A DNA stretch of 39,479 bases. Source: Specibacter cremeus. GTDB taxonomy: Bacteria; Actinomycetota; Actinomycetes; Actinomycetales; Micrococcaceae. How positions within the stretch are numbered: the first letter of the stretch is position 1; each line of letters starts with the position of its first letter. A program made the position numbers and the translations under genes. Positions 8,106 through 26,154 of this stretch are shown piece after piece. The notes beneath the pieces were generated by a model. The model ran no database searches. It was not told where the DNA came from and saw only the letters and a program-made list of their open reading frames with translations. The stretch lies in the NCBI RefSeq assembly GCF_003946885.1, contig NZ_RWKQ01000045.1, forward strand, positions 235 through 39,713, given 5' to 3'.

Positions 8106-8108
8106 ACC

Positions 8109-10870: not shown

Positions 10871-10877
10871 GAGTACA

Positions 10878-12095
10878 GTGCAGCAGGCATTCATCTACGA
10901 CGCGATCCGCACCCCGTTCGGCAAGTTCGGCGGCGGGTTGGCGACCGTGCGACCCGACGACCTGGCCGCCACCATGGTGCGGGCCGCCGTCGAGCGGGCT
11001 CCGGGGCTCGATGCCGACCGGATCGACGAGGTCGTCTTCGGCAACGCCAACGGCGCCGGGGAGGAGAACCGCAACGTGGCCCGGATGGCCACCCTCCTGG
11101 CCGGACTTCCCACCACCATCCCCGGCACCACGGTGAACCGGTTGTGCGGTTCCAGCCTGGACGCGGCGATCATCGGCTCCCGCCAGGTCAACACCGGCGA
11201 GGCCGACCTGGTGCTGGTCGGCGGTGTGGAGTCGATGAGCAGGGCCCCGTGGGTGCTGCCGAAAACGGAGCGGCCCTACCCGGCGGGGGACCTGGCCCTG
11301 GCCTCGACCACCCTCGGGTGGCGGCTGGTGAACCCGCGGATGCCCGCCGCGTGGACGGTCAGCCTGGGGGAGGCCACCGAGCAGTTGCGGCATCGGCACG
11401 GCATCGGCCGGGACCGCCAGGACGCGTTCGCCGCGGCCTCGCACCGCCTGGCCGACGCGGCGTGGACGGCCGGGCACTACGACAACCTCGTGGTGCCGGT
11501 GCCGGGGACCACGCTCGCGCGGGATGAAAGCATCCGCCCCGGCAGCACGCCCGAGGTGCTGGCCGGGTTGACGACGGTCTTCCGGCCCGTCTCCGACGGC
11601 CCCGACGGCGGGACGGTGACGGCGGGGAACGCGTCCCCCTTGAGCGACGGGGCGTCCGCGGCGTGGATCGGCGGCGAGGCCGGCGGCGCGCTGCTGGGCC
11701 TGCCGCCGCTGGCACGCATCGCCGGCCGCGGCGCGGCCGCCCTGGACCCGCAGTTCTTCGGCTTCGCCCCCGTGGACGCGGCCAACCAGGCGCTGCGCCG
11801 GGCCGGGATCGTCTGGGAGGACGTGGCCGCCGTCGAACTCAACGAGGCGTTCGCGGCGCAGTCCCTGGCCTGCATCGACGCCTGGGGGATCGAGGAGGGC
11901 ATCGTGAACGCGTGGGGCGGGGCGTTGGCGATCGGACATCCACTGGGCGCCTCCGGCGTGCGGATCCTGGGCACGCTCGCCCGCCGGCTGCAGTCCACCG
12001 GCGAGAGGTGGGGGGTGGCCGCGATCTGCATCGGCGTCGGCCAGGGGCTGGCCGTCGTGCTCGAAAACGTCACGTCGCTTGATCAGGGGAAGTAG
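10878..12095 (+). CDS. pcaF: 3-oxoadipyl-CoA thiolase
   Basis: 405-residue thiolase II that splits 3-oxoadipyl-CoA with CoA into succinyl-CoA and acetyl-CoA. The nucleophilic Cys is in NRLCGSSLDA (near residue 90), the His in the C-terminal GGALAIGHPLGASG and the second Cys in ICIGVGQG. VELNEAFAAQ is the usual loop. The start is the GTG at 10878 with AGGAG close upstream; the frame is open earlier, but that part overlaps the end of pcaC. pcaF-like thiolases can also serve phenylacetate breakdown (paaJ), but the flanking pcaC and pcaIJ settle the assignment. Confidence 0.93.
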   Translation: MQQAFIYDAIRTPFGKFGGGLATVRPDDLAATMVRAAVERAPGLDADRIDEVVFGNANGAGEENRNVARMATLLAGLPTTIPGTTVNRLCGSSLDAAIIGSRQVNTGEADLVLVGGVESMSRAPWVLPKTERPYPAGDLALASTTLGWRLVNPRMPAAWTVSLGEATEQLRHRHGIGRDRQDAFAAASHRLADAAWTAGHYDNLVVPVPGTTLARDESIRPGSTPEVLAGLTTVFRPVSDGPDGGTVTAGNASPLSDGASAAWIGGEAGGALLGLPPLARIAGRGAAALDPQFFGFAPVDAANQALRRAGIVWEDVAAVELNEAFAAQSLACIDAWGIEEGIVNAWGGALAIGHPLGASGVRILGTLARRLQSTGERWGVAAICIGVGQGLAVVLENVTSLDQGK

Positions 12096-12098
12096 GGG

Positions 12099-12803
12099 AT
12101 GGGGATGCTGACCATCGCGGACACGGCGGAGCAGGCCGTTGCGGACATCACGGACGGGTCCACGGTCCTGATCGGCGGGTTCGGTCCGGCCGGGCAGCCG
12201 GTGGAGCTGATCGAGGCGTTGCTGGAGCAGGGGGCGCGGGAGTTGGTGGTGGTGAACAACAATGCCGGCAACGGCGAGACCGGGCTGGCGGCCCTGATCG
12301 GTGCCGGGCGGGTCCGGAAGATCATCTGTTCGTTCCCGCGCCAGTCCGACTCGCAGATCTTCGATGCCGCCTACCGGGCCGGGACGATCGAGCTCGAACT
12401 CGTGCCGCAGGGCAACCTGGCCGAACGCATCCGGGCCGCCGGGGCCGGAATCGGCGGCTTCTTCACCCCCACCGGGTACGGGACGATCCTGGCGGAAGGA
12501 AAGGAGACCCGGATCATCAACGGCCGCGGGCATGTCTTCGAGACGCCGATCGCCGGCGACGTCGCGTTGATCAAGGCGCTCACCGCGGATCGCGTGGGAA
12601 ACCTGGTGTACCGCAAGACGGCACGGAACTTCGGCCCGATCATGGCCGCCGCCGCCGGCAAGTCCATCGTCCAGGTATCCACCATCGTGGACACCGGCCG
12701 GCTGGACCCGGAGAACGTGGTCACCCCGGGCATCTACGTCAACACCATCGTGCAAATCAATACAGGACACCCGGAACCGGCGACCATGGAGGAAAACCAA
12801 TGA
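12099..12803 (+). CDS. pcaI: 3-oxoadipate:succinyl-CoA transferase, subunit A
   Basis: Up to 234 residues. It belongs to family I CoA transferases and with PcaJ activates 3-oxoadipate using succinyl-CoA. DGSTVLIGGFGPAGQP is the glycine-rich N-terminal CoA-binding motif, GAGRVRKIICSFPR and GGFFTPTGYGTIL are further family motifs. Two starts are possible, ATG at 12099 or ATG at 12105; purine-rich GGGGAAG and AGGGG upstream could serve either. The gene follows pcaF by 3 bases and overlaps pcaJ by 4. The family includes acetoacetate and adipate CoA transferases, but the operon fixes the role here. Confidence 0.9.
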   Translation: MGMLTIADTAEQAVADITDGSTVLIGGFGPAGQPVELIEALLEQGARELVVVNNNAGNGETGLAALIGAGRVRKIICSFPRQSDSQIFDAAYRAGTIELELVPQGNLAERIRAAGAGIGGFFTPTGYGTILAEGKETRIINGRGHVFETPIAGDVALIKALTADRVGNLVYRKTARNFGPIMAAAAGKSIVQVSTIVDTGRLDPENVVTPGIYVNTIVQINTGHPEPATMEENQ

Positions 12804-13441
12804 CCACCACTCTCAGCAGGGAGCAGCTCGCCCGGCTGGTGGCCGGCGACATCGCGCCCGGTTCGTTCGTGAACCTGGGCATCGGCCAGCCCACGATGGT
12901 GTCGAACTTCCTGACGCCCGCCCAGCACGTCACCCTGCACACCGAGAACGGCATGCTCGGCATGGGCCCCGAGGCCGTGGGGGACCAGATCGATCCGGAC
13001 CTGATCAACGCCGGCAAGATCCCGGTCACCGAACTGCCCGGAGCGTCATACTTCCATCACGCCGACTCGTTCGCCATCATGCGCGGCGGCCACCTGGACG
13101 TGTGCGTCCTGGGCGCGTTCCAGGTTTCCACCACGGGCGACCTGGCCAACTGGCACACCGGCGCCCCCGACGCGATACCCGCGGTCGGCGGGGCCATGGA
13201 CCTGGCGACCGGGGCCAAGGACGTGTACGTCATGATGTCCTTGTTCACCCGGGACGGGACGGCCAAGCTGGTTCCCGCGTGCACCTACCCGCTCACCGGC
13301 GTGGGCTGCGTGACCCGCGTCTACACCAATGAGGCGGTGTTCCTGATCGACGACGACGGCGTCCGCGTCCGCGAAACCTTTGGGCTCACCTTTGAGGAGC
13401 TTGCGGCACGGATGGAGATCCCGCTGCTGCGGGCAGGGTGA
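12800..13441 (+). CDS. pcaJ: 3-oxoadipate:succinyl-CoA transferase, subunit B
   Basis: 213 residues. It carries the catalytic Glu of the transferase in HTENGMLGMGP (near residue 50), preceded by FVNLGIGQP. The later ASYFHHADSFAIMRGGHLD and GAFQVSTTGDLANW are conserved in the subunit. Its start overlaps the pcaI stop (ATGA). It is the last gene of the pob/pca run. A 69-bp gap follows to the convergent ABC permease gene; I see only a weak partial palindrome there (about 13486-13500) and no good terminator. Confidence 0.92.
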   Translation: MTTTLSREQLARLVAGDIAPGSFVNLGIGQPTMVSNFLTPAQHVTLHTENGMLGMGPEAVGDQIDPDLINAGKIPVTELPGASYFHHADSFAIMRGGHLDVCVLGAFQVSTTGDLANWHTGAPDAIPAVGGAMDLATGAKDVYVMMSLFTRDGTAKLVPACTYPLTGVGCVTRVYTNEAVFLIDDDGVRVRETFGLTFEELAARMEIPLLRAG

Positions 13442-13510: not shown

Positions 13511-14347
13511 TCACTTCCCTACGCCGCCGGCCAGTCCGCGGACGAAGTAGCGTTGGCAGACGAAGAAGAGGATGACCATCGGCACGGCGGCCATCGTCAT
13601 GCCGGCGAACACGAGCGGGTACTGGGTCCCGTTTTTCGACATCAGGTCGGCCAGGCCCACGGGTAGCGTCTGGAGTCCGGTGCCGCTGGTGAAGACCATG
13701 GCGAAAAGGTATTCGTTCCAGTTGGTCAGCACGTTCAGGACGATGGTGGTGATGATGATGGGCTTGCTCATGGGCAGGGTGATTCGCCAGAAGGCGGCGG
13801 CCCTGGAGGCCCCATCGATGGCGGCCGCCTCGTCGACCTCCAGCGGCAGGTCCATCATGTAGGCGCGCATCAGGAACACGGTGAAGGGTACCCGGAACGC
13901 GGTGTACAGGATCAGCAGGCCAAGGAACGTGTTATACAGGCCCCAGCCCTGGAACATCTTGACGAGGGGAACCAGTGCCACGGTCGGCGCCAGCATGAGG
14001 CCGGCCAGGACGACGACGGTGAACGTGCGGTTGAGCGGGATCCGCACGCGGGTGAGTCCGTAGGCCGCCCACGCGCCGATGGCTTCCGTGAAGAATGTGG
14101 CAAGGACGGTGAGGCTGACGCTCGTGAGGACGAACTTGCCGACGCCTTGTTGCCAGGCGGCGACGAAATTCTCCCACCCGAACCGGGACGGCAACGCGAA
14201 CGGCTTGTCGAAAAGCTCGGTGTTGGTCTTGAATCCATTGAGGAACATCCAGATCAGCGGGTACAGCACGACGACGGCCAGCCCGACCAGGACAATCCAG
14301 ACGAGGGCAGAGCGCACCAGCCGGCCCGCCACTGACGCGCTCACCAT
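13511..14347 (-). CDS. Carbohydrate ABC transporter permease (MalG type)
   Basis: 278 residues with six hydrophobic segments. The inner-membrane EAA loop that contacts the ATPase reads EVDEAAAIDGASRAAAFWRI (about residues 180-200), the standard form for CUT1 sugar permeases. AGGAGG stands just ahead of ATG at 14347, which overlaps the end of the upstream permease gene (stop at 14343-14341); a GTG at 14344 is an equally possible start. It is the last gene of the putative fructosamine import unit. No ATPase gene follows, so the importer probably uses a shared MsmK/MsiK-type ATPase encoded elsewhere. Confidence 0.88.
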   Translation of the reverse strand: MVSASVAGRLVRSALVWIVLVGLAVVVLYPLIWMFLNGFKTNTELFDKPFALPSRFGWENFVAAWQQGVGKFVLTSVSLTVLATFFTEAIGAWAAYGLTRVRIPLNRTFTVVVLAGLMLAPTVALVPLVKMFQGWGLYNTFLGLLILYTAFRVPFTVFLMRAYMMDLPLEVDEAAAIDGASRAAAFWRITLPMSKPIIITTIVLNVLTNWNEYLFAMVFTSGTGLQTLPVGLADLMSKNGTQYPLVFAGMTMAAVPMVILFFVCQRYFVRGLAGGVGK

Positions 14348-15297
14348 TCCACCCTCCTGCTGCGGGACATCCACAATTGCAGGATGGCCAGGATGAGCGT
14401 GATCACGAAGATCGCCACCCCGATGGCTGCGGCGTATCCGAAGTCGTTATTGAGGAACCCGGCGTGGTAGAGCCACGTCCCCAAGACCTGTGATGAGTTG
14501 TTCGGGCCGCCGCTGGTCATGACCATGACCTCGTTGAACACCTGGAAGGCCCCGGAGATCGTCACGATCATCATCAGGCCGGTCATTTCCCGCACCAGCG
14601 GCATGGAGATGCTGAAGAACCGGCGGATCGGTCCGACCCCGTCGATCGCCGACGCCTCGTAGAGCTCGACGGGAATGCGCTGGAGGGCTACGGAGAACAG
14701 GAGAACGCTGTAGCCGAATCCCTGCCACTGGCTCATCGCGATGATCGCGAAGATGGCAGTGCTCTCATGACCCAGCCACGCCTGTGCGTACTGGCCCAGG
14801 CCCATGCTGGTGAGAAACGCGTCGAGCATGCCGGACTGGGGTTGGTAGATGAAGTAGAACAACAGTCCGGCGACGGTCAGGGAGATGGCCGACGGGATGA
14901 AGTAGATGGAACGGAACGCCTTGCGCATCCGCTCGCTCCTGACGCTCTCGACGATGGCGGCCAGGGCCAGGGCTCCGAACACCTGGACCACGATGGAAAT
15001 CAGGGCGTACCAGGCGTTGTTGAGCAGCGCCTTGCCGAAGATCGGGTCGGTCGCCAACTCGGCGTAATTGGCCCCTCCGACAAACGTTTGCTCACCGCTG
15101 TAGATGTTCCACTTCAGGAAGCTGAACACGATGTTCTGCAGCAGCGGCCAGTACACGAACACGGCCAGCACGGCCAGTGCGGGGATGAGCCACACGATGT
15201 TGCGCCACCGCTCCCTGGAATGCACCGGCTGGCGGTTTCGCACCGGCTTCACGTCGCGCGCGACGGCCGGCCGGATGGACGCTGGTGCGGTGGTCAC
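14341..15297 (-). CDS. Carbohydrate ABC transporter permease (MalF/UgpA type)
   Basis: 318 residues, six main membrane segments, with the EAA loop ELYEASAIDGVGPIRRFFSI in the C-terminal half. The frame is open upstream of the chosen start, but that part would overlap the binding-protein gene. GTG at 15297 forms GTGA with the stop of the binding protein gene. The N-terminal 35 residues are basic and cytosolic, then NIVWLIPALAVLAVFVYWPL begins the first segment. It pairs with the MalG-type protein as the heterodimeric channel of a CUT1 importer. Confidence 0.88.
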   Translation of the reverse strand: MTTAPASIRPAVARDVKPVRNRQPVHSRERWRNIVWLIPALAVLAVFVYWPLLQNIVFSFLKWNIYSGEQTFVGGANYAELATDPIFGKALLNNAWYALISIVVQVFGALALAAIVESVRSERMRKAFRSIYFIPSAISLTVAGLLFYFIYQPQSGMLDAFLTSMGLGQYAQAWLGHESTAIFAIIAMSQWQGFGYSVLLFSVALQRIPVELYEASAIDGVGPIRRFFSISMPLVREMTGLMMIVTISGAFQVFNEVMVMTSGGPNNSSQVLGTWLYHAGFLNNDFGYAAAIGVAIFVITLILAILQLWMSRSRRVEW

Positions 15298-16610
15298 TTG
15301 GCCTTCTCCGACGCGGCCCGCACGGCCTTCAACGCATCTGCGGGGCTGAGCCCGCCGGAGACGAGTCCTTCGCTGGCCGACACCCAGGCGTCCCCGACCG
15401 TGGGCACGGTGGCCATGTCGAGCCACACGACGGTCGACGGGGCCTTGTTGACGGCTGCACTGCCTTCGGCGACCGCTGCGCTGGATGTGGTCGCCGTCAC
15501 GGCGCCGATGACGGCACTCGGTTGCCCGTACGGCGGGGAGGAGAGGACGGCGGCATTCTTCTGGCCGGTGGCGAACTTCATGAAGTCGAGGGCCAGGGCG
15601 GCATTCTTGCTCTTGTTGTTGATCATGTACCCCTCGGGGGCGGCCTCCAGCGTCGTCGGGTCACCCTTGGCATCGGCCGGAGCCGGCAGCGGGAAGATTC
15701 CGAAGCCGTCCTTGTTCAATCGGCTGCCTCCGGTGTTGACGGAGTCGAACTCCACCAGCTCCTGGTAGTACATGGCCGCCTTGCCGCCTTGTTGTTGCTG
15801 CTGGGCGGTCGTGTAGGTGACGCCATTGGAATTGGTGCCGTCCCCGGTGCAGGAGGTGATGAGTTCGTTGAATTGCTTCATGGCGGTGACATAGCCGGGA
15901 TCGCTCCACGTGGCTGTCTTGGGCAGCAGGTCCTTGTCGAGTGTCGCCCGGGGGACGTTGTACGCGAAGAGCTGTTGGAGGTAGTGCAGGCCGGGCCAGC
16001 CGTCCTTGTTGCCGAAGGCGATCGGCGTGTAGCCGGCGGCCTTGATGGTCGTGCAATCACTGATCAACTCCTCGAAGCTGCTGGGGACGGTGAGTCCGAG
16101 CTTCGTGAAGATCGCCTTGTTGTACCCCATGAACTTCGCATCGTTGTACAGGGGTACGCCGTAGTACTTGCCGTTGTACTTGAACGCGTTGAGGGCCCCT
16201 GCGCCGAACGTCTTGCCCCAGGTCGTCGACGGTGCGATCTGGGCGCTCAGGTCGGCGGCGAGGCCGTTCTCGGCGAAGTTCTGGCCCCAGTTCCCCGCAT
16301 AGCTGAAGTAGATGTCGGGCAGGGATTGCGAGGCGATCAGGACCTTTTCCTTGTCCTTGACCGCGTTGTCGTCCGTCTCCTGGGACAGGGTGATCTGCAC
16401 CTTGGGGTGTTCGGCCTTGTATGCCTTGATGACGTTCTCGAAGTAGCTGCCCATGGGCTGCCCGGCGAAGGCCGTGAGGATGCTGATCGAGCCGGTGTAG
16501 TCAGGTGCGCTGCCCAGATCGGCTGATTGGGTGCCGCCCCCCGATGAGGAGCACCCTGCAAGCGCGAGCGCCAACGTTGCCGAGGCCGCTGCCAGTGTGA
16601 ATTTTCGCAC
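15294..16610 (-). CDS. Extracellular sugar-type solute-binding lipoprotein of the fructosamine-linked importer
   Basis: 438 residues. A lipoprotein signal peptide ends at the lipobox LALAGC, with the Cys at about residue 20. The rest is a cluster-1 sugar-binding protein (SISILTAFAG, PDIYFSYAGNWG, NGKYYGVPLYNDAKFMGYNK, EGYMINNKSKNAALALDFMK). The start is GTG at 16610, with GGGAG upstream at good spacing. A promoter with an overlapping operator lies 113-141 bp upstream, leaving a leader of about 100 bases. Context with a FrlB-like deglycase and FrlD-like kinase suggests that it binds fructosamines such as fructoselysine; the fold alone would suggest a sugar or oligosaccharide. Confidence 0.88.
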   Translation of the reverse strand: MRKFTLAAASATLALALAGCSSSGGGTQSADLGSAPDYTGSISILTAFAGQPMGSYFENVIKAYKAEHPKVQITLSQETDDNAVKDKEKVLIASQSLPDIYFSYAGNWGQNFAENGLAADLSAQIAPSTTWGKTFGAGALNAFKYNGKYYGVPLYNDAKFMGYNKAIFTKLGLTVPSSFEELISDCTTIKAAGYTPIAFGNKDGWPGLHYLQQLFAYNVPRATLDKDLLPKTATWSDPGYVTAMKQFNELITSCTGDGTNSNGVTYTTAQQQQQGGKAAMYYQELVEFDSVNTGGSRLNKDGFGIFPLPAPADAKGDPTTLEAAPEGYMINNKSKNAALALDFMKFATGQKNAAVLSSPPYGQPSAVIGAVTATTSSAAVAEGSAAVNKAPSTVVWLDMATVPTVGDAWVSASEGLVSGGLSPADALKAVRAASEKAK

Positions 16611-16722
16611 GTTAATCTCCCGTCATGATCGTCGGGCGCGGAGTTCCATGTCCGCCGGAACCAGGGTTCCTGACCCGCCGTTGGATCGTTTGAGCCGGTA
16701 GTCGCGCCGGCAAGTTGTAACG

Positions 16723-16751
16723 ACTATAGCGATATGTGGTACCGGTATCAA
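16723..16751 (-). promoter_or_regulatory. Promoter with overlapping LacI-type operator for the sugar-type ABC importer
   Basis: On the minus strand, TTGATA (16751-16746) and TATAGT (16728-16723) are separated by exactly 17 bases, a good sigma-70-type promoter. The operator TGGTACCGGTATCA (plus strand 16737-16750) overlaps the -35. It differs at one base from the perfect 14-bp palindrome in front of the frlB-like gene (19928-19941). Binding of the LacI protein encoded at 16833-17924 would block RNA polymerase here. The remaining gap 16611-16832 shows nothing else I can name. Confidence 0.75.
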
Positions 16752-16832
16752 TAGTTTCAGAAGGAGTTTCCACTGCGAATGTGAATTGACCGGTTGAAGC
16801 GATTTCGGTTCCGGGTTGACCGTCCGTCCGGA

Positions 16833-17924
16833 CTAGCGGCGGGGGGCGGCGACACTGGCGCGCGGCACGAACGTTGCCTCCAGGACGTGTGTGGCCACCG
16901 GTGCCGTGTCGGCGGCGATCCGTTCGAGCAGGCATTCGGCGGTGACGGTGCCCAGCTGTTCCAGTGGTTGGGCGACCATGGACAGTGGCGGTGACATCAC
17001 GGTGGCCCAACTGCTGTCGTCAAAACCGATCAGGGACACGTCGTCCGGGTATGTCAGGCCGCGCTGCCGCAGGGCCAGCAGCGTTCCGACCAGGGCGTCG
17101 GACTCCGTGGCGAAGATCGCCGTGGGCGGGTCCACGAGGGCCAGCATGCCCAAGACGGCACGGGTCGCCTGTTGTTCGTTCTTGAGGACGTGGGTGACCA
17201 GCGACGTGTCAAACTCGATGCCGGCCTTGTCCAGTGCGTCAAGGTACCCGCGGAGGCGTTCGCCGTCGCTCGAGAGCGAGCGGGCGATGATCGCCTCCAT
17301 TTGGCGGGGGCCCGTTGCCGGCTCCACCGTCACGGGTCCCCAGACGAAGCCGATGCGCTGGTGACCGTTGCCGATCAACTCGGAGACCGCTTCGAAGGCG
17401 GCTTCACGGTTGTTGATGACCACCGTGTCCAGGTCGGTGCCGTCAAACAGCCTGTCGACGAGGACGAGCGGGATGCCACGGGACTGGACCAGCTCAAGAT
17501 GTGCCGGCGGGGCGTCGCGGCCCGCGGCGGAGGCCAGGACAATACCGTCGACCTGCTTGTCGACGAGCACACCGACGGCGTCGGCTTCCTTGGCCAGGTT
17601 CTCGTCGGTGCTCAGGACGAGAACGTCGTAGCCGTGCCGGTGAACGGTGTCGGTGAATGCCTTGAGGACGCCGGCGAAGAACGGGTTCCCGACGTCCGCG
17701 AGAACCACTCCGAGCGTCTTGGTTTCACCGGTGGTCATGCTGCGGGCGATGGCATTGGGCCGGTAGCCGAGCTGCTTGGCCGCACGCAGGACCCGCTCCC
17801 GGGTCGGCCCACTGACCGAACCGTAGCCGCCCAACGTGCGCGCCACGGTCGCCCGGCCGACGCCGGCCGCGTCGGCAACCTCGGAAATGGTCGGTGAGGA
17901 CGGGGCCCGGTTCTGTTCACTCAT
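16833..17924 (-). CDS. LacI-family regulator of the fructosamine genes
   Basis: 363 residues. The N-terminal helix-turn-helix and hinge (TISEVADAAGVGRATVARTL, then YRPNAIARSMTTGETKTLGV) are followed by a periplasmic-binding-protein-like effector domain (VVLADVGNPFFAGVLKAF; FATESDALVGTLLALRQRG; GFDDSSWATVMSPPLSMVAQP). It sits between the kinase gene and the importer, all on one strand. Two matching CCGG-centred palindromes stand before the two halves of the cluster, so I infer that it represses both and is released by the sugar-amino-acid or its phosphate. It resembles the regulator at 25057-26154 closely around the recognition helix (ARxLGGYGxVS). Confidence 0.88.
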   Translation of the reverse strand: MSEQNRAPSSPTISEVADAAGVGRATVARTLGGYGSVSGPTRERVLRAAKQLGYRPNAIARSMTTGETKTLGVVLADVGNPFFAGVLKAFTDTVHRHGYDVLVLSTDENLAKEADAVGVLVDKQVDGIVLASAAGRDAPPAHLELVQSRGIPLVLVDRLFDGTDLDTVVINNREAAFEAVSELIGNGHQRIGFVWGPVTVEPATGPRQMEAIIARSLSSDGERLRGYLDALDKAGIEFDTSLVTHVLKNEQQATRAVLGMLALVDPPTAIFATESDALVGTLLALRQRGLTYPDDVSLIGFDDSSWATVMSPPLSMVAQPLEQLGTVTAECLLERIAADTAPVATHVLEATFVPRASVAAPRR

Positions 17925-17967
17925 AGTGTGCCCATCTTCGCAGATCGGCCGACCCGGTCCGTGCAGT

Positions 17968-18837
17968 TCAGGCCGCGGGTTCGGGTGTCACCTGGCGGCC
18001 GAACCCGAACGCGCCGTCGACGGTGCATTGCCGCGCGGCAAAGCGTGCGGCCCGCTTCATGGACCGGTGGATGAGCGAGGTGCCGGGCAGTATGTCTCGT
18101 CGCCAGCCGCCGTCGAGCATCTCGACGACGAACGCGGCGAGGTAGGCATCGCCGCACCCCATCGTATCGACGAACGTGCCGGCAACCGGGGCGGCCCTGG
18201 AATGGAAGAACTTCCTCCCGTCAAAGAGCACGGATCCCCGCTCGCCGAGTGTGCCCAGCACCAGTGCGGCGCCGTGGCTCCTGAAGCGGCGAAGCTCCGA
18301 CCAGAGGCGTTGCTGGTCAAGCTCGCCGCACGAGACGAGCGCCAGGTCAATGGCTGGACAAACCTCGCCGAGGTAGTCGTCGGTGCGGAATTCTTCCTCG
18401 GTCGAGAAATCGAAGGAAACCAGGCCCCTCGTTTGGCGCAATGTTCGCAATTCCGGCTCGACGGCCGAGTAGACGCTGGAGTGCACGTGGTCAAACGTGG
18501 CGACGTAGTCGAGGCCGTGGAGGCGGACGGGGTCACTGGCCGTGACCCCGCCGCCGTTCCACCGGACGAACCGCCGATCGCCGGCGACGGTCTGGATTTC
18601 GGTGAGGCCATTGGGCCCGGGCCGGATCTCGCATTCGGCGGTGCCCACGCCGGCGGCCTCAATGCACGAGCGGACAAACCGGCCGGGCTCGTCGTCGCCG
18701 AACACACCCAGATAGGCGGCCTCGGCCCCCAGCTGCCGCGCGTAGACGGCAAAGTTGACACAGTTGCCCCCGGGATACTCAATACCCCGATCCACGAATC
18801 GATCGACAATGTTGTCCCCGAACCCGAGCACTCGCAC
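17968..18837 (-). CDS. PfkB-family kinase, fructoselysine 6-kinase (FrlD)-like
   Basis: About 289 residues. The ribokinase-family N-terminal motif is GGNCVNFAVYARQLGAEAAY and the C-terminal signature with the catalytic Asp is FVDTMGCGDAYLAAF. The acceptor-side residues FDFSTEEEF resemble FrlD (fructoselysine kinase) proteins. I choose GTG at 18837 because GGGGAG stands 6 bases upstream; a GTG two codons earlier touches that site. The gene lies directly between the SIS deglycase and the LacI gene, matching the kinase-deglycase pairing of the frl pathway, in which the kinase makes the 6-phosphate of a fructosamine that the deglycase then cleaves. The exact amine partner is unknown. Confidence 0.8.
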   Translation of the reverse strand: MRVLGFGDNIVDRFVDRGIEYPGGNCVNFAVYARQLGAEAAYLGVFGDDEPGRFVRSCIEAAGVGTAECEIRPGPNGLTEIQTVAGDRRFVRWNGGGVTASDPVRLHGLDYVATFDHVHSSVYSAVEPELRTLRQTRGLVSFDFSTEEEFRTDDYLGEVCPAIDLALVSCGELDQQRLWSELRRFRSHGAALVLGTLGERGSVLFDGRKFFHSRAAPVAGTFVDTMGCGDAYLAAFVVEMLDGGWRRDILPGTSLIHRSMKRAARFAARQCTVDGAFGFGRQVTPEPAA

Positions 18838-18896
18838 GGGCACCTCCCCACCGTTGATTGTCCATTATTGTTGCCGCAGGTCCGTCGGGACGCTTG

Positions 18897-19898
18897 CTAG
18901 TACGCCACGACCCGGTAATACCGGCGGATGTCCAGCGAGTGGTCACGTGCCCGGGCCAGGTGCTTGCTGAACCGATCGACGACCGCGTCCGCGACGATGG
19001 GCGAGAGTAGGCCACGGAACTCCTCGCTGATGCCCGGCAACGCAAAGTCGCGGGTGTCCACAACGGTGACGAAATCGCTGTACTGCTCCGCAAAGGCCCG
19101 GGCCCGTTCCATCAGCGGCCGGGTTTCATCCTCGCCGATGAAGAGGATGAGGCTGGTGTCCTTCTCAATGAGTTCCAGCGAGCCGTGGAAGAACTCGGCC
19201 GCATGGACACGCGTCGTACGCAGCCACTGCATCTCCTCGAGTACGCACATGGAATACAGGTACGTGAAACCCCAGAGGTTCCCGGAGCCGACCAGGAAGT
19301 GGTAGTCGGTGGCCGCGTGGGCCTGTGCGAAAGCCTGGCCGCGGCCGTCGGCACTCTTGGCGACGGCAACAAGCGCGGCCGGCAAGGACTGGAGTTCCGT
19401 GGCGAGCTTCTCGTATCCCTCGAACTCCCCCCGCGCGGACAGGAACGCCGCCGAGAACAGCAGCAATTGGACATCGAAGGGCCACGCCTTCGGCTCGGAC
19501 ACGAGGGAAACCTCGACGGCGGCGGCAAAGGGGCTTTCCGCGTACCCGGTGAAGCCGACAGTCAGTGCACCCCTGTCGCGGGCGAATTCGATGGATTCCA
19601 GGATGTCCTCCGTGGTGCCCGAAACGGAGGCGAAGATGGCCACCGACGTCGGTCCGAAACCCGGATCCGCGGCGAGGATGAACTCCTTGCCGATTACCGC
19701 CCGCGCCGGGAATGTGGAACGGGTTTGGAAGAAGCGCTCGTAGGGGAGTACCGCGGCATGCGTGCCGCCGGCGCCAATGAAGTAGATGTTCTCGTAGCCG
19801 CCTCCCTGGATCCTGGCGACCAATTCCTCGATGGCCGGGCGCAGCGCCACGGTGCTGCTCGTCTGGGTGAAGAATTCATCTTCGTCAAAGTCAAGCAA
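18897..19898 (-). CDS. SIS-domain protein, fructoselysine-6-phosphate deglycase (FrlB)-like, TTG start
   Basis: 333 residues with two SIS (sugar isomerase) domains, the first with NIYFIGAGGTHAAV (about 37-50) and the second with HFLVGSGNLWGFTYLY (about 200-215). The stretch LEEMQWLRTTRVHAAEFFHG is close to FrlB/FraB proteins. A Glu near residue 222 and a His near 238 are 16 apart, the same spacing as the Glu/His pair implicated in the fructose-asparagine deglycase FraB. These enzymes split the 6-phosphate Amadori compound into glucose-6-phosphate and an amino acid. The frame is open upstream, but GAGAGGA stands just before TTG at 19898 and the operator at 19928-19941 would otherwise lie inside the gene. 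It is the first gene of the cluster. Confidence 0.82.
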   Translation of the reverse strand: MLDFDEDEFFTQTSSTVALRPAIEELVARIQGGGYENIYFIGAGGTHAAVLPYERFFQTRSTFPARAVIGKEFILAADPGFGPTSVAIFASVSGTTEDILESIEFARDRGALTVGFTGYAESPFAAAVEVSLVSEPKAWPFDVQLLLFSAAFLSARGEFEGYEKLATELQSLPAALVAVAKSADGRGQAFAQAHAATDYHFLVGSGNLWGFTYLYSMCVLEEMQWLRTTRVHAAEFFHGSLELIEKDTSLILFIGEDETRPLMERARAFAEQYSDFVTVVDTRDFALPGISEEFRGLLSPIVADAVVDRFSKHLARARDHSLDIRRYYRVVAY

Positions 19899-19917
19899 TT
19901 CTTTTCCTCTCGGTAAG

Positions 19918-19941
19918 TGATACCGACTGATACCGGTATCA
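19918..19941. promoter_or_regulatory. LacI-type operator and half-site upstream of the frlB-like gene
   Basis: TGATACCGGTATCA at 19928-19941 is a perfect 14-bp palindrome with the CCGG centre. Directly beside it is a half-site repeat, TGATACCGAC at 19918-19927, one helical turn away. It lies 20-43 bases upstream of the TTG start. The same sequence with one change overlaps the importer promoter at 16737-16750. No clear -35/-10 pair is visible nearby. The rest of the gap (19942-20057) shows nothing I can name. Confidence 0.75.
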
Positions 19942-20057
19942 ACATGTCTCAAGTCTGACACGTCCGCAATTGGAAGGCAAGCACTTTTTGGGTGGTTTTC
20001 ATTGATCGGTGCACGGTGAAAGCGGTGCCGGAGGCCACGATCCGTGGGCAAACGAAC

Positions 20058-20096
20058 GAGGGCGGCCTCGGCACTGGCGTGTCCGAGGCCGCCCTC
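20058..20096 (-). terminator. Rho-independent-type terminator of the FAD oxidase operon
   Basis: A perfect 14-bp inverted repeat (GAGGGCGGCCTCGG at 20058-20071, CCGAGGCCGCCCTC at 20083-20096) with an 11-base loop lies 30 bases after the stop of the FAD oxidase gene. On the minus strand it is followed by GTTCGTTTG, a weak U-rich tail. It separates the oxidase operon from the frlB-like operon that starts about 160 bp further on, on the same strand. Confidence 0.75.
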
Positions 20097-20126
20097 CGGC
20101 CTACATGTTTGGGCGTTGGCTACGCG

Positions 20127-21251
20127 TCAGCGGTCGAATCGCTCGGGCCGGAACGTGGCCAGCATGGGGTGCTTGGTCCCGGTCAGGATCTCCCCGGCGA
20201 GCAGTTCGCCGGCGATGAGGCCCAGGGTTGCACCGGAGTGGGTGAACGCGACGTGGCAGCCGGGGACCTTCTCAAGCTCTCCGAAGACCGGTTCGCCGTC
20301 GCCGGGGATGGGTTTGCGGCCGATCTTCCAACTGGCCGGCTTGAGCCCGGGATTGCCGGCGAGCAGTTTGCCGGCCTCGTCGGCCAGTTCCTGCACGACC
20401 TGCTCGGGGATGCTGAACGTGCCGTCCTCGTGTTCGGTGAACCGGTCCTCGTACCAGTCATGGTCGAGGGCCAGGGTGCTGCCGGGATTGGGGCGCACGG
20501 CGGCCCGGGGGGTATTCATCACGGCCGTGATGCCGTGGTTCACGGGCTCGGTGATGACGAGCATGGAGACGGGGGAGGCGTTGCCGATGCCCACCCCGAG
20601 CGGGGCCACCACCTCGGGCGTCGCGGCGCCGCAGGCGACCAGGACGGCGTCGGCGGTGTAGACCTGCCCGGCCGCTGTCGACACGCCGCTGGCTCGCCCG
20701 TCCGTGACGATGACGGCGGCCTTGCCGGCGTTGAGGACGAGTTCGCCGCCACGGGCCTTGAACTCGTCCATGAGGTAGTCGACCAGGTCGGGCAGGCTGA
20801 CCCAGCCTTCGCCGGGATTGAAGATGGCCGCGGCCGGCACGGCCACGGGGGCGACGGCCGGAGCAACGACGGGGATCTCGGCGGGGGAGACGAGCTGGGA
20901 GTCGTACCCGTGCGCGGATTCGTAGTCGTGGCGGTGCCGGGTTTCGATCCCGGTGCTGTCGGTGCTCCAGTACAGGCCGCCACCGAACTGCAGCCAGTCG
21001 CGGGCCGGGTCGGAGGCAAAGAGCGTCCGGTACCTGTCGACGCCGGCCATGCGCAGGTTGTGGTAGGGCAGGGAGCGTTGCCCGGCGGAGTTCAGCCAGG
21101 ACAGGGACCGGCCCGTCGCCTCGCTGGCCAATTCGGTCTCGGTGACCAGGGTGACGGTGGCGCCGTTGCGCAGCAGGTGGACGGCGGTGGACACGCCCAT
21201 GATGCCGCCGCCGATGATGGCGACGTGCGTGGAGGCGGGAACGGAAGTCAT
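20127..21251 (-). CDS. FAD-dependent oxidoreductase, DAO fold; possible amadoriase (fructosyl-amino-acid oxidase)
   Basis: 374 residues. The Rossmann FAD motif VAIIGGGIMGVSTAVHLL is at about 9-26, followed by GRSLSWLNSAGQR, a variant of the DAO substrate-side segment. The C-terminus has the FAD-contact stretch GCHVAFTHSGATLGLIAGEL. Length and layout fit monomeric sarcosine oxidase, glycine oxidase and bacterial fructosyl-amino-acid oxidases (about 370 residues); the motifs seen do not distinguish these. No signal peptide, so it is cytosolic. It is last in an operon with an amino-acid ABC importer and a MocA-type dehydrogenase under a LacI regulator, and it borders a frl-like cluster. A sugar-responsive regulator controlling an amino-acid importer makes a fructosyl amino acid or opine-like substrate attractive. 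Confidence 0.75.
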   Translation of the reverse strand: MTSVPASTHVAIIGGGIMGVSTAVHLLRNGATVTLVTETELASEATGRSLSWLNSAGQRSLPYHNLRMAGVDRYRTLFASDPARDWLQFGGGLYWSTDSTGIETRHRHDYESAHGYDSQLVSPAEIPVVAPAVAPVAVPAAAIFNPGEGWVSLPDLVDYLMDEFKARGGELVLNAGKAAVIVTDGRASGVSTAAGQVYTADAVLVACGAATPEVVAPLGVGIGNASPVSMLVITEPVNHGITAVMNTPRAAVRPNPGSTLALDHDWYEDRFTEHEDGTFSIPEQVVQELADEAGKLLAGNPGLKPASWKIGRKPIPGDGEPVFGELEKVPGCHVAFTHSGATLGLIAGELLAGEILTGTKHPMLATFRPERFDR

Positions 21252-21316
21252 GGTGATGCTCTCTTTCGTGGAAATTGGGCCAAGCGGCCCGTGGCGATGT
21301 GGCCGGGCCGGGATGG

Positions 21317-22372
21317 TCAGGGGTGGCGGTGGATGGCCTCGATGATCCTGAGTGTGGCCAGGGACTCTTCCGGATCGACGGGAAGGGGTCCCCCGTCGAG
21401 GACGGCGTCGGCGAGCAGCCGGTAGAACTCCGGATATGCGCCCCGTTCGGCCGGGACGGGAGTCGTCGCCCCGTCGACGCCGATCCGTCCCCAGGCGGCC
21501 TCGGGTTCAACGCCATAGTCCGGGTCGGCGGGTGTCAGGCCGGAGTCCAGCGCCGGTTCCTGCCCGTCGAGCCCCCATTTCGTGTATCCGGCCCGGGAAC
21601 CGAGGACGTGGAACCGCGCACCCACCTGGGCGGCCCGGCCGTTCATCCAGAGCCGTGACCGGACGCCGGACGCGTGCCGGAGCGAGACGAACGCCTCCCG
21701 GTCTGCGTCGGCCGGCTCCCGGGTGTCGCGGTCCGTCTCGCCGTAGCTGCCGGTCACAGGCCCGAATAGGTCGATGGCCTGGTCGATCAGGTGCGCGCCA
21801 AGGTCGTGCAGGATGCCGCCGCCCTGGGCGATCGTTGCCTCATCGCGCCAGTTGCCGAACCCGTCCGGCCGCCACCACTCAAAACGAGACTCGAAGCTGC
21901 GCACCTCGCCGAGGTCGCCTTCGCGCAGGAGTCGTTTGAGGGTGAGGAAATCGGCGTCCCAGCGCCGGTTCTGGAACACCGTAAGGACCACGCCGGCACG
22001 CTCCGCCCGGGCGATCAACTCCTGGCCTTCGGTGCTGGTGGCGACGAACGGCTTGTCGACCACGACGTGCAGGCCGGCCTCGATCGCTGCGGCCGCAAGC
22101 TCGAAGTGGGTTGCCGGGGGCGTGCCGAGGATGACCACGTCAAAGTCGCCGGCCTGGGCCAGTAGCTCTCCGGGCCGGCCCAGGATCTGCGTGTTCGGGT
22201 ACCTGTTCGCGGCCTGGCGGCGACGGTCCGGATCGCCGGTGACAATGGCCGCCAGACGGTAGCGCGGGTCCGCGGCGATCAATGGGGCGTGGAAGACGCG
22301 TCCGGAGATCCCATAGCCGACGACGGCGGCACGCAGCGGGGTCTGCGGGTCACGGTTGGTGGGGGTGGGCAT
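21317..22372 (-). CDS. Gfo/Idh/MocA-family NAD(P)-dependent oxidoreductase
   Basis: 351 residues. The N-terminal Rossmann fold begins AAVVGYGISGRVFHAPLIAA (about 14-33), and the family motif around the catalytic Lys reads AGLHVVVDKPFVATS (about 99-113). The C-terminal domain has GGGILHDLGAHLIDQAIDLFG, with the His/Asp pattern conserved in the family. These enzymes oxidise or reduce sugars, inositols and sugar derivatives. The start overlaps the ATPase gene stop by one base. In this operon it could process the sugar part freed by the FAD oxidase, for example glucosone from an Amadori compound; that is my inference. Confidence 0.87.
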   Translation of the reverse strand: MPTPTNRDPQTPLRAAVVGYGISGRVFHAPLIAADPRYRLAAIVTGDPDRRRQAANRYPNTQILGRPGELLAQAGDFDVVILGTPPATHFELAAAAIEAGLHVVVDKPFVATSTEGQELIARAERAGVVLTVFQNRRWDADFLTLKRLLREGDLGEVRSFESRFEWWRPDGFGNWRDEATIAQGGGILHDLGAHLIDQAIDLFGPVTGSYGETDRDTREPADADREAFVSLRHASGVRSRLWMNGRAAQVGARFHVLGSRAGYTKWGLDGQEPALDSGLTPADPDYGVEPEAAWGRIGVDGATTPVPAERGAYPEFYRLLADAVLDGGPLPVDPEESLATLRIIEAIHRHP

Positions 22373-23142
22373 CAGAGCACCTCCGACAGGAACCGCCGGA
22401 GGCGGTCGCTTTGGGGGTGGTCGAAGAGTTGGTCCGGTTTGCCGGCCTCGACGACCTCTCCCTCGTCCATGAACACGACCTGGTCGGCGACCCTGCGGGC
22501 GAAGCCCATCTCATGGGTCACCACGACCATGGTCATACCGCGGGCGGCCAGGCCGGCCATCAGGTTCAAGACGCCCTTGACCAGTTCGGGGTCCAGGGCG
22601 CTGGTCGCCTCGTCGAAGAGCATGACCTCGGGCTCCATGGCCAGGGCCCGTGCGATCGCGACGCGCTGTTGCTGGCCGCCGGAGAGGTCACGGGGGCGGT
22701 GGTCCGAGCGTTCGGCCAGGCCAACCTCGGCCAGTCGCGCCCGTGCCCGGGCGGTTGCCTCTGCCTTCGACAGGCCCTTGACCTTGCGCAGGGACAACGC
22801 CACGTTGTCCAGGGCCGTGTGGTCGGGGAAGAGGTTGAAGTGCTGGAAGACCATCCCGATCCGTCGGCGCAGGATGTCGGGTTTGATCCCGAGGGCGCTT
22901 TCGCCGGCCAACAGCACGTCCCCGCTCTTGGGCTCGTGGAGGCGGTTGATCCCGCGCAGCAACGTTGACTTGCCCGACCCGGACGGGCCGATGATGCAGG
23001 TCGTCGTGCCCGGGGCGATCGTCATGCTGACGTTGCGCAGGACCTCGATGTCGCCGTAGGCCATGGTCAGATCCCGGAGCTCGAGGCTGGACCCCCGGTA
23101 GGTGTCCAGGCCTGCGACGGGGGTGTGGGTGGTGGTGCTCAT
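22372..23142 (-). CDS. Amino-acid-type (PAAT) ABC transporter ATP-binding protein
   Basis: 256 residues. Walker A is [12 protein letters not shown] (about 53-64), Q-loop [17 protein letters not shown], signature [17 protein letters not shown], Walker [17 protein letters not shown] and the switch His in [23 protein letters not shown] and the MGFAR ending are typical of polar amino acid importers. It overlaps the permease stop by 4 bases (ATGA) and the MocA gene by 1 base. Confidence 0.93.
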
Positions 23143-23927
23143 GTGTTGCTCCCGGGGGTCAGCGGCGTGGCCGCGTTCAGTTCGTTGACTTCGTTGAGCC
23201 CGCTGGTGGGCGCGGACGGGCGGCGGCGGCCGGTGCGGAACCGGTTGTCGAAGTAGTTCACCAGGTGGGTCAGCGGCACCGTGATGGCCAGGTAGAAGAT
23301 GCCGGCCATGACGAGCGGGGACAGGTTGCCGGAGAGGACCGCGGCGTCCTGGCCGACCCGGAACAGTTCGCGCTCGCCCACCAGCAGGCCCAGGAAGTAG
23401 ACCAGGGAGGAGTCCTTGACGATGGCGATGAACTGGTTGACCAGGGCGGGCAGGACGCGGCGGATACCCTGGGGGACGACCACGAGGGCCATGGCCTTGG
23501 CGTAGCTCATGCCCAGGGCGCGGCAGGCCTCAAGCTGGCCGCGGTCGACGCCCATGATGCCGGCGCGGAAGATCTCCCCGATATAGGAGCTGGCGATCAG
23601 GCTCAGCGCGATGATCCCGAGCGGGTAGGGGGAGGGGCCGAAGATGCTCTGGCTGAGCTTGGCGAAGCCCTGCCCAATGAGCAGGATCGTCAGGATGGCC
23701 GGCAGGCCGCGGAACAGGTCCGTGTAGATGCGGGCCGGGATGCGCAGCCAACGCGAGGGGGAGATGCCCATCACGGCCACGACCATGCCCAGCACCAGGC
23801 CGATGACGGTCGCGGAAATCGAGATGATGAGGGTGTTGAGCAGGCCGGTGCCGATGAGTTGCGGGAATACATCGGCCATGGCCTTGAAGTCGAAGAACGT
23901 GCGGGTGATCGTGTTGAGCCAGTCCAT
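23139..23927 (-). CDS. Amino-acid-type ABC transporter permease
   Basis: 262 residues with about five membrane segments. The EAA-type cytoplasmic loop reads [20 protein letters not shown] (about residues 130-150), followed by [20 protein letters not shown] and [11 protein letters not shown], standard for His/Glu/Arg/opine-type permeases. No second permease gene is present, so it should work as a homodimer. The 25 C-terminal residues after RFRTGRRR form a polar tail. Confidence 0.9.
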
Positions 23928-23964
23928 GGGTTGCTCTCAGGGATTAGGGGGCTTGGGTGCAGGG

Positions 23965-24003
23965 GCGCGCGGGCCGGCCGGTGGGTTTGGCCGGCCCGCG
24001 CGC
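23965..24003 (-). terminator. Intercistronic 15-bp perfect hairpin after the binding protein gene
   Basis: GCGCGCGGGCCGGCC at 23965-23979 and its exact complement at 23989-24003 enclose a 9-base loop. The hairpin starts 5 bases after the binding protein stop codon and no U-tract follows it. Its position suggests partial termination or 3'-end protection that gives more binding protein than membrane components, a known pattern in ABC operons. Confidence 0.75.
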
Positions 24004-24008
24004 TGCCA

Positions 24009-24869
24009 CTACTTGGTGGGCGCGGCCGTGGCCGTCTGGTCGGCCTTGGGGAGGTACTGCTTGGGCATGGGCGAGCCGGGGAACCACTTCTGGTAGAGCG
24101 TCTTCCAGGTGCCGTCCGCCATGGCGGCGGCCAGGCCCTTGTTCAGGGCCGCGAGCAGGGCCGGCTTGTCCTTGGCGACGGCGAAGCCTGCCGGCGCGTC
24201 GAAGGAGGGGATGTCGGCGGCGCTGACGAGCCCGAACTGCTGCTCATATGTCTTGGCGGCCTCGTAGTCGAGGAAGTGCGCGTCGACGGTGCCGGCGTTG
24301 AGGGCCGCGATGGCCGTGTTGTTGTCGGGAAACCGGACCAGGTTGGCCGTGGGGAAGTTCTTCACGGCGTACGCCTCCTGGAGCGAGCCCTGGACCACGC
24401 CCAGGCGCTTGCCGGCCAGGCCGTTGACGTCCTTGATGCCGGAGTTCTTGGTCGTGATGACAGTCAGGTAGCCGGCCAGGTAGCCATTGGAGAAGTCGAC
24501 CGTTTGCTTGCGCTTGTCGGTGATGCCGATCGCGGCCGCCCCGACGTCGAACTGGCCATTGGCGACGGCCGGCAGGATCGAGGAGAAGTCCTGGCCCGTG
24601 AAGACGACATTCTTGATGCCGGCACGGTGCGCGACATCGGTGAACAGTTGCACATCGAAGCCGGTGAAATTCCCTTGGGCGTCCGTGAATGTATAGGGCT
24701 TGGAATCGCCGACGCTGGCAACGCGGACAGTACCCGCCTGGATGAGGCCGTACGGGTTGTCGGCGGAGGTTGCCGACGACGCGCCGCCGCCGCAGGCGGA
24801 CAGGGCGAGCACGGCCGCCAGGGCCGCACCGGCCAGGGCGGTGAAGCGGAGCTTGAGGGGTGTTTTCAC
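24009..24869 (-). CDS. Amino-acid-type ABC transporter substrate-binding lipoprotein
   Basis: 286 residues. The signal peptide ends in the lipobox ALSAC, with the lipid-bearing Cys at about residue 26. SBP_bac_3 family features follow: [59 protein letters not shown] and DFLDYEAAK-like text near residue 200. I start at GTG 24869; a TTG four codons upstream is the alternative, without a convincing ribosome binding site. The family binds polar amino acids and opines, including, in Agrobacterium, the Amadori compound deoxyfructosylglutamine. First gene of the operon under the LacI gene at 25057. Confidence 0.87.
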
Positions 24870-24954
24870 TGCGTGTTCCAATCACGGGGTGGGGCGGCCG
24901 GCAACACGTGGGCCGGACCGGCAGGGCGGGGTCTCTAGTTGCGAAGTCCCTTGA

Positions 24955-24993
24955 TGAGTCCGGTCTCAACCTGTAATATTGAGACCGGACTCA
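24955..24993. promoter_or_regulatory. Twin LacI-type operators between the importer operon and its divergent regulator
   Basis: TGAGTCCGGTCTCAA (24955-24969) and its exact reverse complement TTGAGACCGGACTCA (24979-24993) form a perfect 15-bp inverted repeat with 9 bases between. Each arm is itself a near-palindrome with the CCGG centre (12 of 14 positions), so I read it as two operator copies with centres 24 bp apart, not as a hairpin only. A TTGAGA at 24979 with TAGAAC at 25004 might be a weak promoter for the regulator. The sites resemble TGATACCGGTATCA of the neighbouring cluster. Confidence 0.75.
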
Positions 24994-25056
24994 CAGTGGT
25001 TGCTAGAACTGTAATGGATGCCACAAGGCGCGTCAATACCCCCATGAGAGGCAGGA

Positions 25057-26154
25057 ATGAGCGAATCAACACCGAGGCGCCGTGACGTCACGGTCGCCGA
25101 CGTCGCACGGGAAGCCCGCGTGTCCAAGGCCCAGGCCGCCCGGGCCCTTGGAGGATACGGCGCAGTCAGCGACGACGTCCGGGAGCGCGTCATGGCCGCC
25201 GCCGAGCATCTCAACTACCGCCCCAATGAACTCGCCAGGACCATGAACACGGGCAAGTCCAACACACTCGGGGTTGTCGTCGGCGACATCGAAAACCCGC
25301 ACTTCGGCCTGGCCATGAGGGGTATTTCGGATGTCGCCAAGGCGGCTGGATTCGACGTCATCCTCATCAACACGAGCGAGGATGTCGCGGCGGAAGTCGA
25401 TGCCGTGCGGGTGCTCTTGGACAAGCGCGTGGATGGGCTGATCGTCGCCCCGGCGTCCCGGGGTGACTCGGAACATCTCGGGCGCGTGCTCGAAGCCGGT
25501 CGGCCGCTGGTCCTCTTCGACCGGAAGGTGGACGGTCTCAATGTCGATGTGTTCGCCCCAGACATGACCGACGTCGCCAGGGAATCGACTGAACAACTGA
25601 TCGCGGTTGGTCATCGGCGTATCGCCTTCATCTCCACGGTCGACGCCGAAGGACCGTATCGGGAGGGCATGCCGTTGGCGTCGTCACAGGTCGCCGAAAG
25701 GCTCCTGGGCATGCATCTGGCCTTCCGTCATGCTGGCCTGTGCCTCAATCGGGACCTGATACGTCTTGGCGCCGGCGATTCGGAGTCAATCGCGGCCATC
25801 ACCGAGGAGGTCCTTGCCGACGGCGCCACAGCGATCGTGGCCTCGGACGGGCTGATTGCACTGTCCGTCATCGAGACAATTCAGCGACTTGGCCTGTCCA
25901 TTCCGGACGATGTGTCGTTCCTGATGTACGACGACTTTGCCTGGACGAAGCTCACCAGCCCACCCCTGAGCGTGATCGCACAGCCCGTTTACGACATCGG
26001 CGCCGCCGCCGCCCGCGCCGTCATCCTGCGGATCCGCGGACAAGTGCCACGGACCAGTCCCGAGGAGCTCAAGGCGGTTCTGGTGGAACGGGGTTCCATC
26101 GGAGCGGCAACGGCAGGGGATAGGCAGGCCATGGGTGCATCAAGTGCACGCTGA
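25057..26154 (+). CDS. LacI-family regulator of the amino-acid importer/FAD oxidase operon
   Basis: 365 residues. The helix-turn-helix VTVADVAREARVSKAQAARA and hinge YRPNELARTMNTGKSNTLGV are followed by the effector domain (VVGDIENPHFGLAMRGISDV; IVASDGLIALSVIETIQRLG; MYDDFAWTKLTSPPLSVIAQ). ATG at 25057 has GAGAGG just upstream. It is divergent from the binding protein gene with twin operators in the gap. The recognition helix region ARALGGYGAVS nearly matches ARTLGGYGSVS of the regulator at 16833-17924, so the two look like paralogues with related but distinct operators. LacI proteins usually sense sugars, which is unusual for an amino-acid-type importer. Confidence 0.88.
   Translation: MSESTPRRRDVTVADVAREARVSKAQAARALGGYGAVSDDVRERVMAAAEHLNYRPNELARTMNTGKSNTLGVVVGDIENPHFGLAMRGISDVAKAAGFDVILINTSEDVAAEVDAVRVLLDKRVDGLIVAPASRGDSEHLGRVLEAGRPLVLFDRKVDGLNVDVFAPDMTDVARESTEQLIAVGHRRIAFISTVDAEGPYREGMPLASSQVAERLLGMHLAFRHAGLCLNRDLIRLGAGDSESIAAITEEVLADGATAIVASDGLIALSVIETIQRLGLSIPDDVSFLMYDDFAWTKLTSPPLSVIAQPVYDIGAAAARAVILRIRGQVPRTSPEELKAVLVERGSIGAATAGDRQAMGASSAR

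Follow-up and report, generated by a model that had tools for sequence, protein, structure and literature searches.

A soc-like operon beside an frl-like kinase-deglycase block under sister LacI regulators in Specibacter cremeus

Two routes for the catabolism of Amadori-type sugar-amino acid conjugates, the plant-opine soc route and the frl route of gut bacteria and Bacillus, are usually studied apart, and a locus of Specibacter cremeus (Micrococcaceae) raises the question of whether one cell may run both from the same place. The window analysed here is a stretch of 39,479 nucleotides (assembly GCF_003946885.1, contig NZ_RWKQ01000045.1, positions 235 to 39,713), in which the locus occupies positions 13511-26154. 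A first-pass annotation had described an frlB/frlD-like pair with a sugar-type importer, adjoining an operon with an amino-acid-type importer, a MocA dehydrogenase and a DAO-fold FAD (flavin adenine dinucleotide) oxidase, and all of these genes were recovered in place by the open reading frame list and family searches (this genome is G000 in our set). We consider it probable that the locus serves two-channel scavenging of glycated amino acids, the channels being separately regulated and perhaps serving different substrates. Both halves are of known kinds; what appears to be new is their recurring side-by-side pairing under sister repressors. As had been supposed, no account of such an adjacent pair was found in the literature, nor of the operator pair or of the hybrid loci reported below, in a search that had most subscription papers outside its reach.

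Two catabolic blocks on one strand

The structural genes of both operons all lie on the minus strand. On the soc side, the gene of a solute-binding protein (SBP; 24881-24009) is followed by an amino-acid-type permease (23139-23927), an ATP-binding cassette (ABC) ATPase (22372-23142), a Gfo/Idh/MocA oxidoreductase in the SocC position (21317-22372) and the FAD oxidase (20127-21251), and a LacI regulator gene on the plus strand (25057-26154) is divergent from the SBP gene. The minus-strand order continues on the frl side with a SIS deglycase (18897-19898), a PfkB kinase (17968-18843), a second LacI regulator (16833-17924), a sugar-type SBP (15294-16610; Pfam SBP_bac_1, 8e-31) and two sugar-type ABC permeases, the first at 14341-15312 (BPD_transp_1, 6e-13; the start at 15312 is our choice in an open frame that begins at 15426) and the second at 13511-14374 (BPD_transp_1, 6e-19; same position in the frl blocks of relatives).

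Homology and gene order identify 20127-26154 as a soc (santhopine catabolism) operon arranged as in Agrobacterium pAtC58. The region beside the pAtC58 repABC genes, where a review places socR and socABCD (PMC4231840), encodes a LacI protein, an SBP, a permease-ATPase fusion, a MocA enzyme and an FAD oxidase in the order of this locus, in which socR is likewise divergent from socA-B-C-D. Identities to the pAtC58 proteins are 53% for SocD, 60% for SocA, 50% for SocR, and 69% and 75% for the permease and ATPase, which correspond to the N-terminal and C-terminal halves of SocB, respectively. The top three matches of the SBP in PDB were 6hqh (1.8e-99), 5l9o and 5lom (both 2.7e-99); the latter two are solved deoxyfructosyl-amino-acid binding proteins, pointing to a SocA-type protein, and 6hqh bears a different molecule name (murein transglycosylase). 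The same operon is also present on Klebsiella and Arthrobacter plasmids and has reportedly been known from Agrobacterium since the work of Baek in 2003. Two loci, L066 and L156 (the latter from Sinomonas gamaensis), carry an extra socD copy upstream of socR. Arthrobacter isolates carrying soc genes have been reported to degrade santhopine in vitro (PMC8262997). The oxidase operon expected on this side is therefore there, but it is the soc operon, already known, Arthrobacter included.

In a phylogenetic tree of the oxidase, all 32 SocD rows, including that of pAtC58, form one clade (100/99, with the bootstrap not fully settled), which is apart from E. coli DadA, SolA, the putrescine oxidase PuuB and MnmC and from eight paralogues of the same genome on long branches; the tree took in eight of 48 DAO matches, and the D-amino-acid and sarcosine-type oxidases are represented by E. 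coli DadA and SolA, likewise on long branches. A D-amino-acid or sarcosine oxidase, whose clustering with this protein had been named in advance as grounds for abandoning the Amadori interpretation, is ruled out by the separate SocD clade, and by homology the enzyme is best assigned to the bacterial SocD kind. Its structural model (predicted local distance difference test score 92) best matched the fold of 7fgp, a flavin opine dehydrogenase (template modelling score 0.87, 26% identity), followed by glycine oxidases, and fungal fructosyl peptide oxidases appeared only from rank 20 onward, the first being 5t1e. Sequence searches of PDB likewise gave 7fgp as the best match (2.6e-32), with 5t1e at only 2.5e-6, so that fungal fructosyl amino acid oxidases are not the closest relatives. 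The Amadori-type assignment made in the first-pass annotation stands by way of the SocD clade and not by closeness to the fungal enzymes. The rank of 7fgp would fit an enzyme that oxidises some other secondary amine, such as an opine or an N-alkyl glycine, and not a fructosyl amino acid. We regard this as very unlikely, considering that SocA, SocB, SocD and SocR are 50-75% identical to their pAtC58 counterparts, that gene order and operator type are those of pAtC58 soc, and that the soc-bearing Arthrobacter isolates degrade santhopine (PMC8262997).

The other half, 13511-19898, is identified by its protein families as a kinase-deglycase block of the frl-like type; it includes a sugar-type importer but no ATPase gene, none being found between 13511 and 20126 in the open reading frame list. 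Its deglycase is ranked in PDB nearest to 2a3n (7.5e-65, 222.7 bits), which we take to be Salmonella GfrF, a fructoselysine-type deglycase, and then to 8glr (218.8 bits) and 3eua (1.5e-45, 159.3 bits), which carries the name fructose-aminoacid-6-phosphate deglycase and is presumably B. subtilis FrlB. The 2a3n match begins at the TTG codon at 19898, which follows AGAGGA, and the start was therefore placed there, giving a protein 51 residues shorter than the longer frame starting at 20051. The kinase has a DTMGCGD motif, and the deglycase keeps EEMQW and EFFHG motifs, the histidine of the latter being presumably functional. The catalytic glutamate of FraB is E214 (PMC12755824), and a counterpart is predicted in the deglycase from a 20-residue offset.

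Sister repressors and distinct operators

The two LacI proteins of the window are 38% identical (217 bits) and are mutual best matches in the genome, the next best matches scoring 122 and 135 bits; this comparison covered 20 of the 21 LacI matches of the genome, a 105-residue match (L109) having been dropped for its length. In a LacI tree from which own_L099 and own_L104, copies of the window proteins, were left out, the rows of the frl side (13) and of the soc side (17) group together (100/99) to the exclusion of 18 other LacI proteins of this genome, with 100/100 for the frl side and 94/78 for the soc side. By these phylogenetic data the two regulators are sisters, and their close relationship, as claimed at the outset, is confirmed. 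We call the soc-side protein SocR-like and name the frl-side protein FrlR purely for its position; the B. subtilis FrlR belongs to the GntR type.

Palindrome searches revealed predicted operators at each promoter, namely TGATACCGGTATCA before frlB (19928-19941), TGGTACCGGTATCA before the frl SBP gene (16737-16750), and, upstream of socA with a spacing of 25 bp, TGAGTCCGGTCTCA (24955-24968) and TGAGACCGGACTCA (24980-24993). In the 4.3 Mb genome there are exactly two matches to TGRTACCGGTAYCA and exactly two to TGAGNCCGGNCTCA, every one at this locus, and reversed-pattern controls gave 0 and 0 matches genome-wide. The conserved frl operator TGATACCGGTATCA differs from the soc operator TGAG(A/T)CCGG(T/A)CTCA by one base per half-site. 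Operator discovery covered short palindromes, and the comparison with pAtC58, enteric and hybrid loci used 14-bp palindromes with listed centres; pAtC58 and the enteric loci carry the same soc palindrome type, and Nonomuraea carries the same frl type. Across the mapped loci, counted without the three hybrids (L063, L067 and L219), after removal of matches below 55% (socA), 50% (frlB) and 50% (SBP) identity and with some loci counted twice, soc-type sites precede 84 of 86 socA genes, the exceptions being L122, which has a variant site, and L210, where socA is split and the match is its second piece. All 22 frlB promoters and 22 of 23 frl SBP promoters (the miss is L222) have frl-type sites, and the soc sites are spaced by 25 bp in 56 of 80 cases. 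Each LacI protein would bind the palindromes at its own promoters, and, considering that the two operator types differ in each half-site, the channels probably respond to separate inducers. These sequences may also allow either regulon to be located in other genomes.

None of the mapped promoters contains both operator types, which makes two independent channels likelier than one regulon and rules out an operator shared by both operons. Behind the oxidase gene lies a minus-strand hairpin that is a likely terminator (20058-20096; folding z = -4.73, none of 200 shuffles being as stable), and a simple terminator scan gave one hit against 0.3 expected. The soc and frl operons are therefore likely separate transcription units in spite of their common strand; a single long operon across both halves is ruled out by the hairpin and the separate operators. 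The frl side itself looks like two units, frlB-frlD-LacI and then SBP-permease-permease, since each has its own operator.

Recurrence of the pairing and hybrid loci

A pair of this kind exists in other genomes as well. In a survey of the family (245 genomes), 43 have socD (E <= 1e-30), comprising 27 with a soc operon, two with a hybrid locus, 13 with a lone socD and one unclear case, and frlB (at least 53% identity) is present in 15, frlD being found in the same 15; two further genomes have only a 30% relative of frlB. Thirteen of the 15 frlB genomes contain socD (2.6 expected, hypergeometric 2e-9), and 11 of them do so if only soc operons and hybrids are counted (1.8 expected, 9e-9). A survey of 396 genomes of the order, which overlaps with that of the family and, like it, includes this genome, detected socD (E <= 1e-60) in 32, frlB (E <= 1e-100) in 11 and both in 10; the p-values ignore relatedness. 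With this genome excluded, co-occurrence amounts to 12 of 14 frlB genomes in the family, 9 of 10 in the order and 10 of 14 for the soc operons of the family. As a side observation, in 13 of 42 fetched family loci (L059, L065, L076-L085 and L087) a SocD-like gene was found with the other soc genes absent from the fetched stretch.

The two genes are also linked. Within the family, socD and frlB lie within 10 kb of each other in five of the 13 genomes (this genome, G076, G079, G116 and G031) and about 22 kb apart in G149, and in the order survey six of the 10 co-occurring genomes are linked within 10 kb, three of them from another family (G520, G584 and G600). The arrangement of the window recurs in G079, Arthrobacter sp. 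SX1312 and Arthrobacter ruber (L154), a second is found in G116 and in G031 (where only socD adjoins the frl block), a third in G076 and G520, and a fourth in G584 and G600. Arrangements vary, and most soc loci are without frl. One soc locus (L134) has a distant frl-like cluster.

It could be argued that the region is unstable and that accessory catabolic operons became neighbours in it by chance. The absence of frl from most soc loci would agree with this, and so would the neighbouring genes, one of which, among 23 genomes of the genus, occurs only here and the other in five including this genome; the rarity of these flanking genes marks the region as accessory. Linkage in two families in at least four relative arrangements, and an excess of co-occurrence that persists without this genome, make such an explanation unlikely and already disfavoured: both co-occurrence and linkage greatly exceed expectation and are not due to chance.

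As to the flanks of the locus, a gene present in one of the 23 genus genomes, this one, encodes an aminoglycoside-phosphotransferase-like kinase fused to a class III aminotransferase (26292-28643), perhaps a kinase plus phospho-lyase, beside a permease-like frame (28649-30253). A further LacI gene (30349-31398) has another amino-acid-type SBP and permease in its vicinity (31512-33502), as read from the open reading frames. On the other side, genes at 5433-13441 read like a 4-hydroxybenzoate/protocatechuate pathway (pobA, pcaHG, pcaB, pcaD, pcaC, thiolase and CoA transferase), these names coming from the reading of the open frames.

Some loci combine parts of both systems. In L063, L067 and L219, a SocR-like gene adjoins a sugar-type importer, behind which come SocC and SocD, and soc-type operators are kept; L219 comes from another family, and there two permeases matched while no frl SBP match passed the filter. 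In L122, FrlD/FrlB-like genes at 31% identity come after a soc-type importer, and the deglycase has EFFQG instead of EFFHG, which weakens L122 as a clean fourth combination of importer and enzymes and suggests that this deglycase may do something else. Several variants were observed besides these: in L070 (1703-4792), a distant FrlD/FrlB-like pair, whose deglycase likewise reads EFFQG, and a LacI gene 39% identical to SocR adjoin a complete soc operon; L223 and L224 each have two tandem SIS deglycase-like genes, one with EFFQG and the other with DFFHG, accompanied by FrlD and a sugar-type importer; and in L240 (15001-22583, S. meliloti pSymB) an FrlB/FrlD-like pair lies beside an amino-acid-type ABC importer and an FAD oxidoreductase unmatched by the SocD of the window, perhaps another kinase-plus-oxidase pairing.

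The replacement of the soc importer by a sugar-type one in L063, L067 and L219 suggests a common substrate class and hence that the channels might be redundant, both taking the same fructosyl amino acid with the choice set only by oxygen or energy supply. Such redundancy is possible but doubtful: the mapped loci have separate operators and diverged repressors, the importer types differ, and the deglycase is nearer to 2a3n, the presumed fructoselysine-type enzyme, than to 3eua, presumably part of the B. subtilis pathway with its preference for alpha-glycated amino acids.

Proposed working and comparison with known systems

In the two-channel scheme, SocA would bind a santhopine-like fructosyl amino acid for import by SocB, and the FAD enzyme SocD would oxidise the C-N bond to yield glucosone and H2O2 along with the amino acid; the sugar product may then be a substrate of SocC. 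On the frl side, the sugar-type SBP and two permeases would import a fructosamine with the help of a shared ATPase encoded elsewhere, FrlD would phosphorylate C-6, and FrlB would split the product into glucose 6-phosphate and the amino acid. In B. subtilis, either FrlP or the shared MsmX can serve as the ATPase of FrlONM, and the frl pathway favours alpha-glycated amino acids (PMC12632257). Each channel would be repressed by its own LacI protein, with an inducer that is probably channel-specific. The proposal that one side degrades by phosphorylation and splitting and the other by oxidation, both on Amadori-type compounds, fits these homologies. A broader view, which we hold at about even chances, is that Amadori catabolism in Micrococcales is modular: two importer types (amino-acid-type SocAB and sugar-type Frl) and two chemistries (oxidation by SocD, phosphorylation and splitting by FrlD/FrlB) would have been recombined under one SocR/FrlR family. 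Divergence of its paralogues in ligand and in one operator base pair per half-site would then allow a cell to handle two classes of glycated amino acids through channels insulated from each other.

Several results weigh against the two-channel interpretation, besides the fold ranking of the oxidase, in which fructosyl oxidases come only after a flavin opine dehydrogenase and glycine oxidases. The MocA enzyme is 54% identical to its Klebsiella-plasmid counterpart but only 28% identical to pAtC58 SocC in a partial match over 192 residues and is not its ortholog; the supposition that it handles the freed dicarbonyl sugar is accordingly unproven. Four other soc operons (L157, L165, L170 and L207; three enteric and one from another Micrococcales family) have no socC match between the ATPase gene and socD, and SocC orthology was therefore not deemed a defining trait of soc operons. 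The best NCBIfam matches, fructoselysine 6-kinase for the kinase (148.9 bits, cut-off 247) and fructoselysine 6-phosphate deglycase for the deglycase (99.7 bits, cut-off 430), are both below the equivalog cut-offs, implying a distant frl-like lineage and not E. coli-type FrlB/FrlD. A simple scan detected no sigma-70-like promoter in 19800-20200, before frlB, so a separate frlB promoter is putative. Furthermore, 13 of the 43 socD genomes of the family have the lone gene, including two (G031 and G240) that count among the 13 with co-occurrence. In the set of closest soc loci (49 loci, L123-L171, of which some have short flanks) an frl block lies within 10 kb only in L153 and L154.

The locus bears on the use of santhopine and of decaying plant matter by soil and root bacteria, and the natural part-swaps could help to dissect how importer, repressor and enzyme each determine substrate choice.

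Compared with frlBONMD-frlP of B. subtilis (PMC12632257), the frl block shares the deglycase, kinase, sugar-type SBP and two permeases, but it has a LacI regulator instead of FrlR, two transcription units in the order B-D-R and then SBP-permeases, and no ATPase gene, whereas B. subtilis FrlP is encoded downstream and is interchangeable with MsmX. Also close, on the soc side, are Arthrobacter strains from tobacco roots and santhopine-treated soil (PMC8262997): the records of NtRootA1 (L130) and StoSoilB13, tied to these isolates by their NtRoot/StoSoil names only ('NtRootA1' is absent from the main text of that paper), have a socD 74% identical to that of the window and a complete soc order as here, but no frlB match within about 9-10 kb, and the words 'frl' and 'deglycase' are absent from the same main text. 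In pAtC58, socR and socABCD comprise, in the order found here and with the same operator type at the promoter, a divergent LacI gene, SBP, amino-acid-type permease and ATPase, MocA-family enzyme and FAD oxidase; the present locus differs in having separate permease and ATPase genes, a MocA protein of another subfamily, and an adjoining frl block under a sister LacI. Agrobacterium also has the moc genes, of which MocD and MocE are a deglycase and a kinase. A mocD mutant is unable to degrade deoxyfructosylglutamine (DFG), so that within one genus this Amadori opine has a second route besides soc; moc resides on mannopine-catabolic plasmids under the repressors MrtR, MocR and MocS and, as far as that account tells, not beside soc under a sister LacI (PMC6341043). 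Anyhow, soc and moc of Agrobacterium, which both degrade the same opine (PMC4231840, PMC6341043), provide a precedent for two routes of Amadori catabolism.

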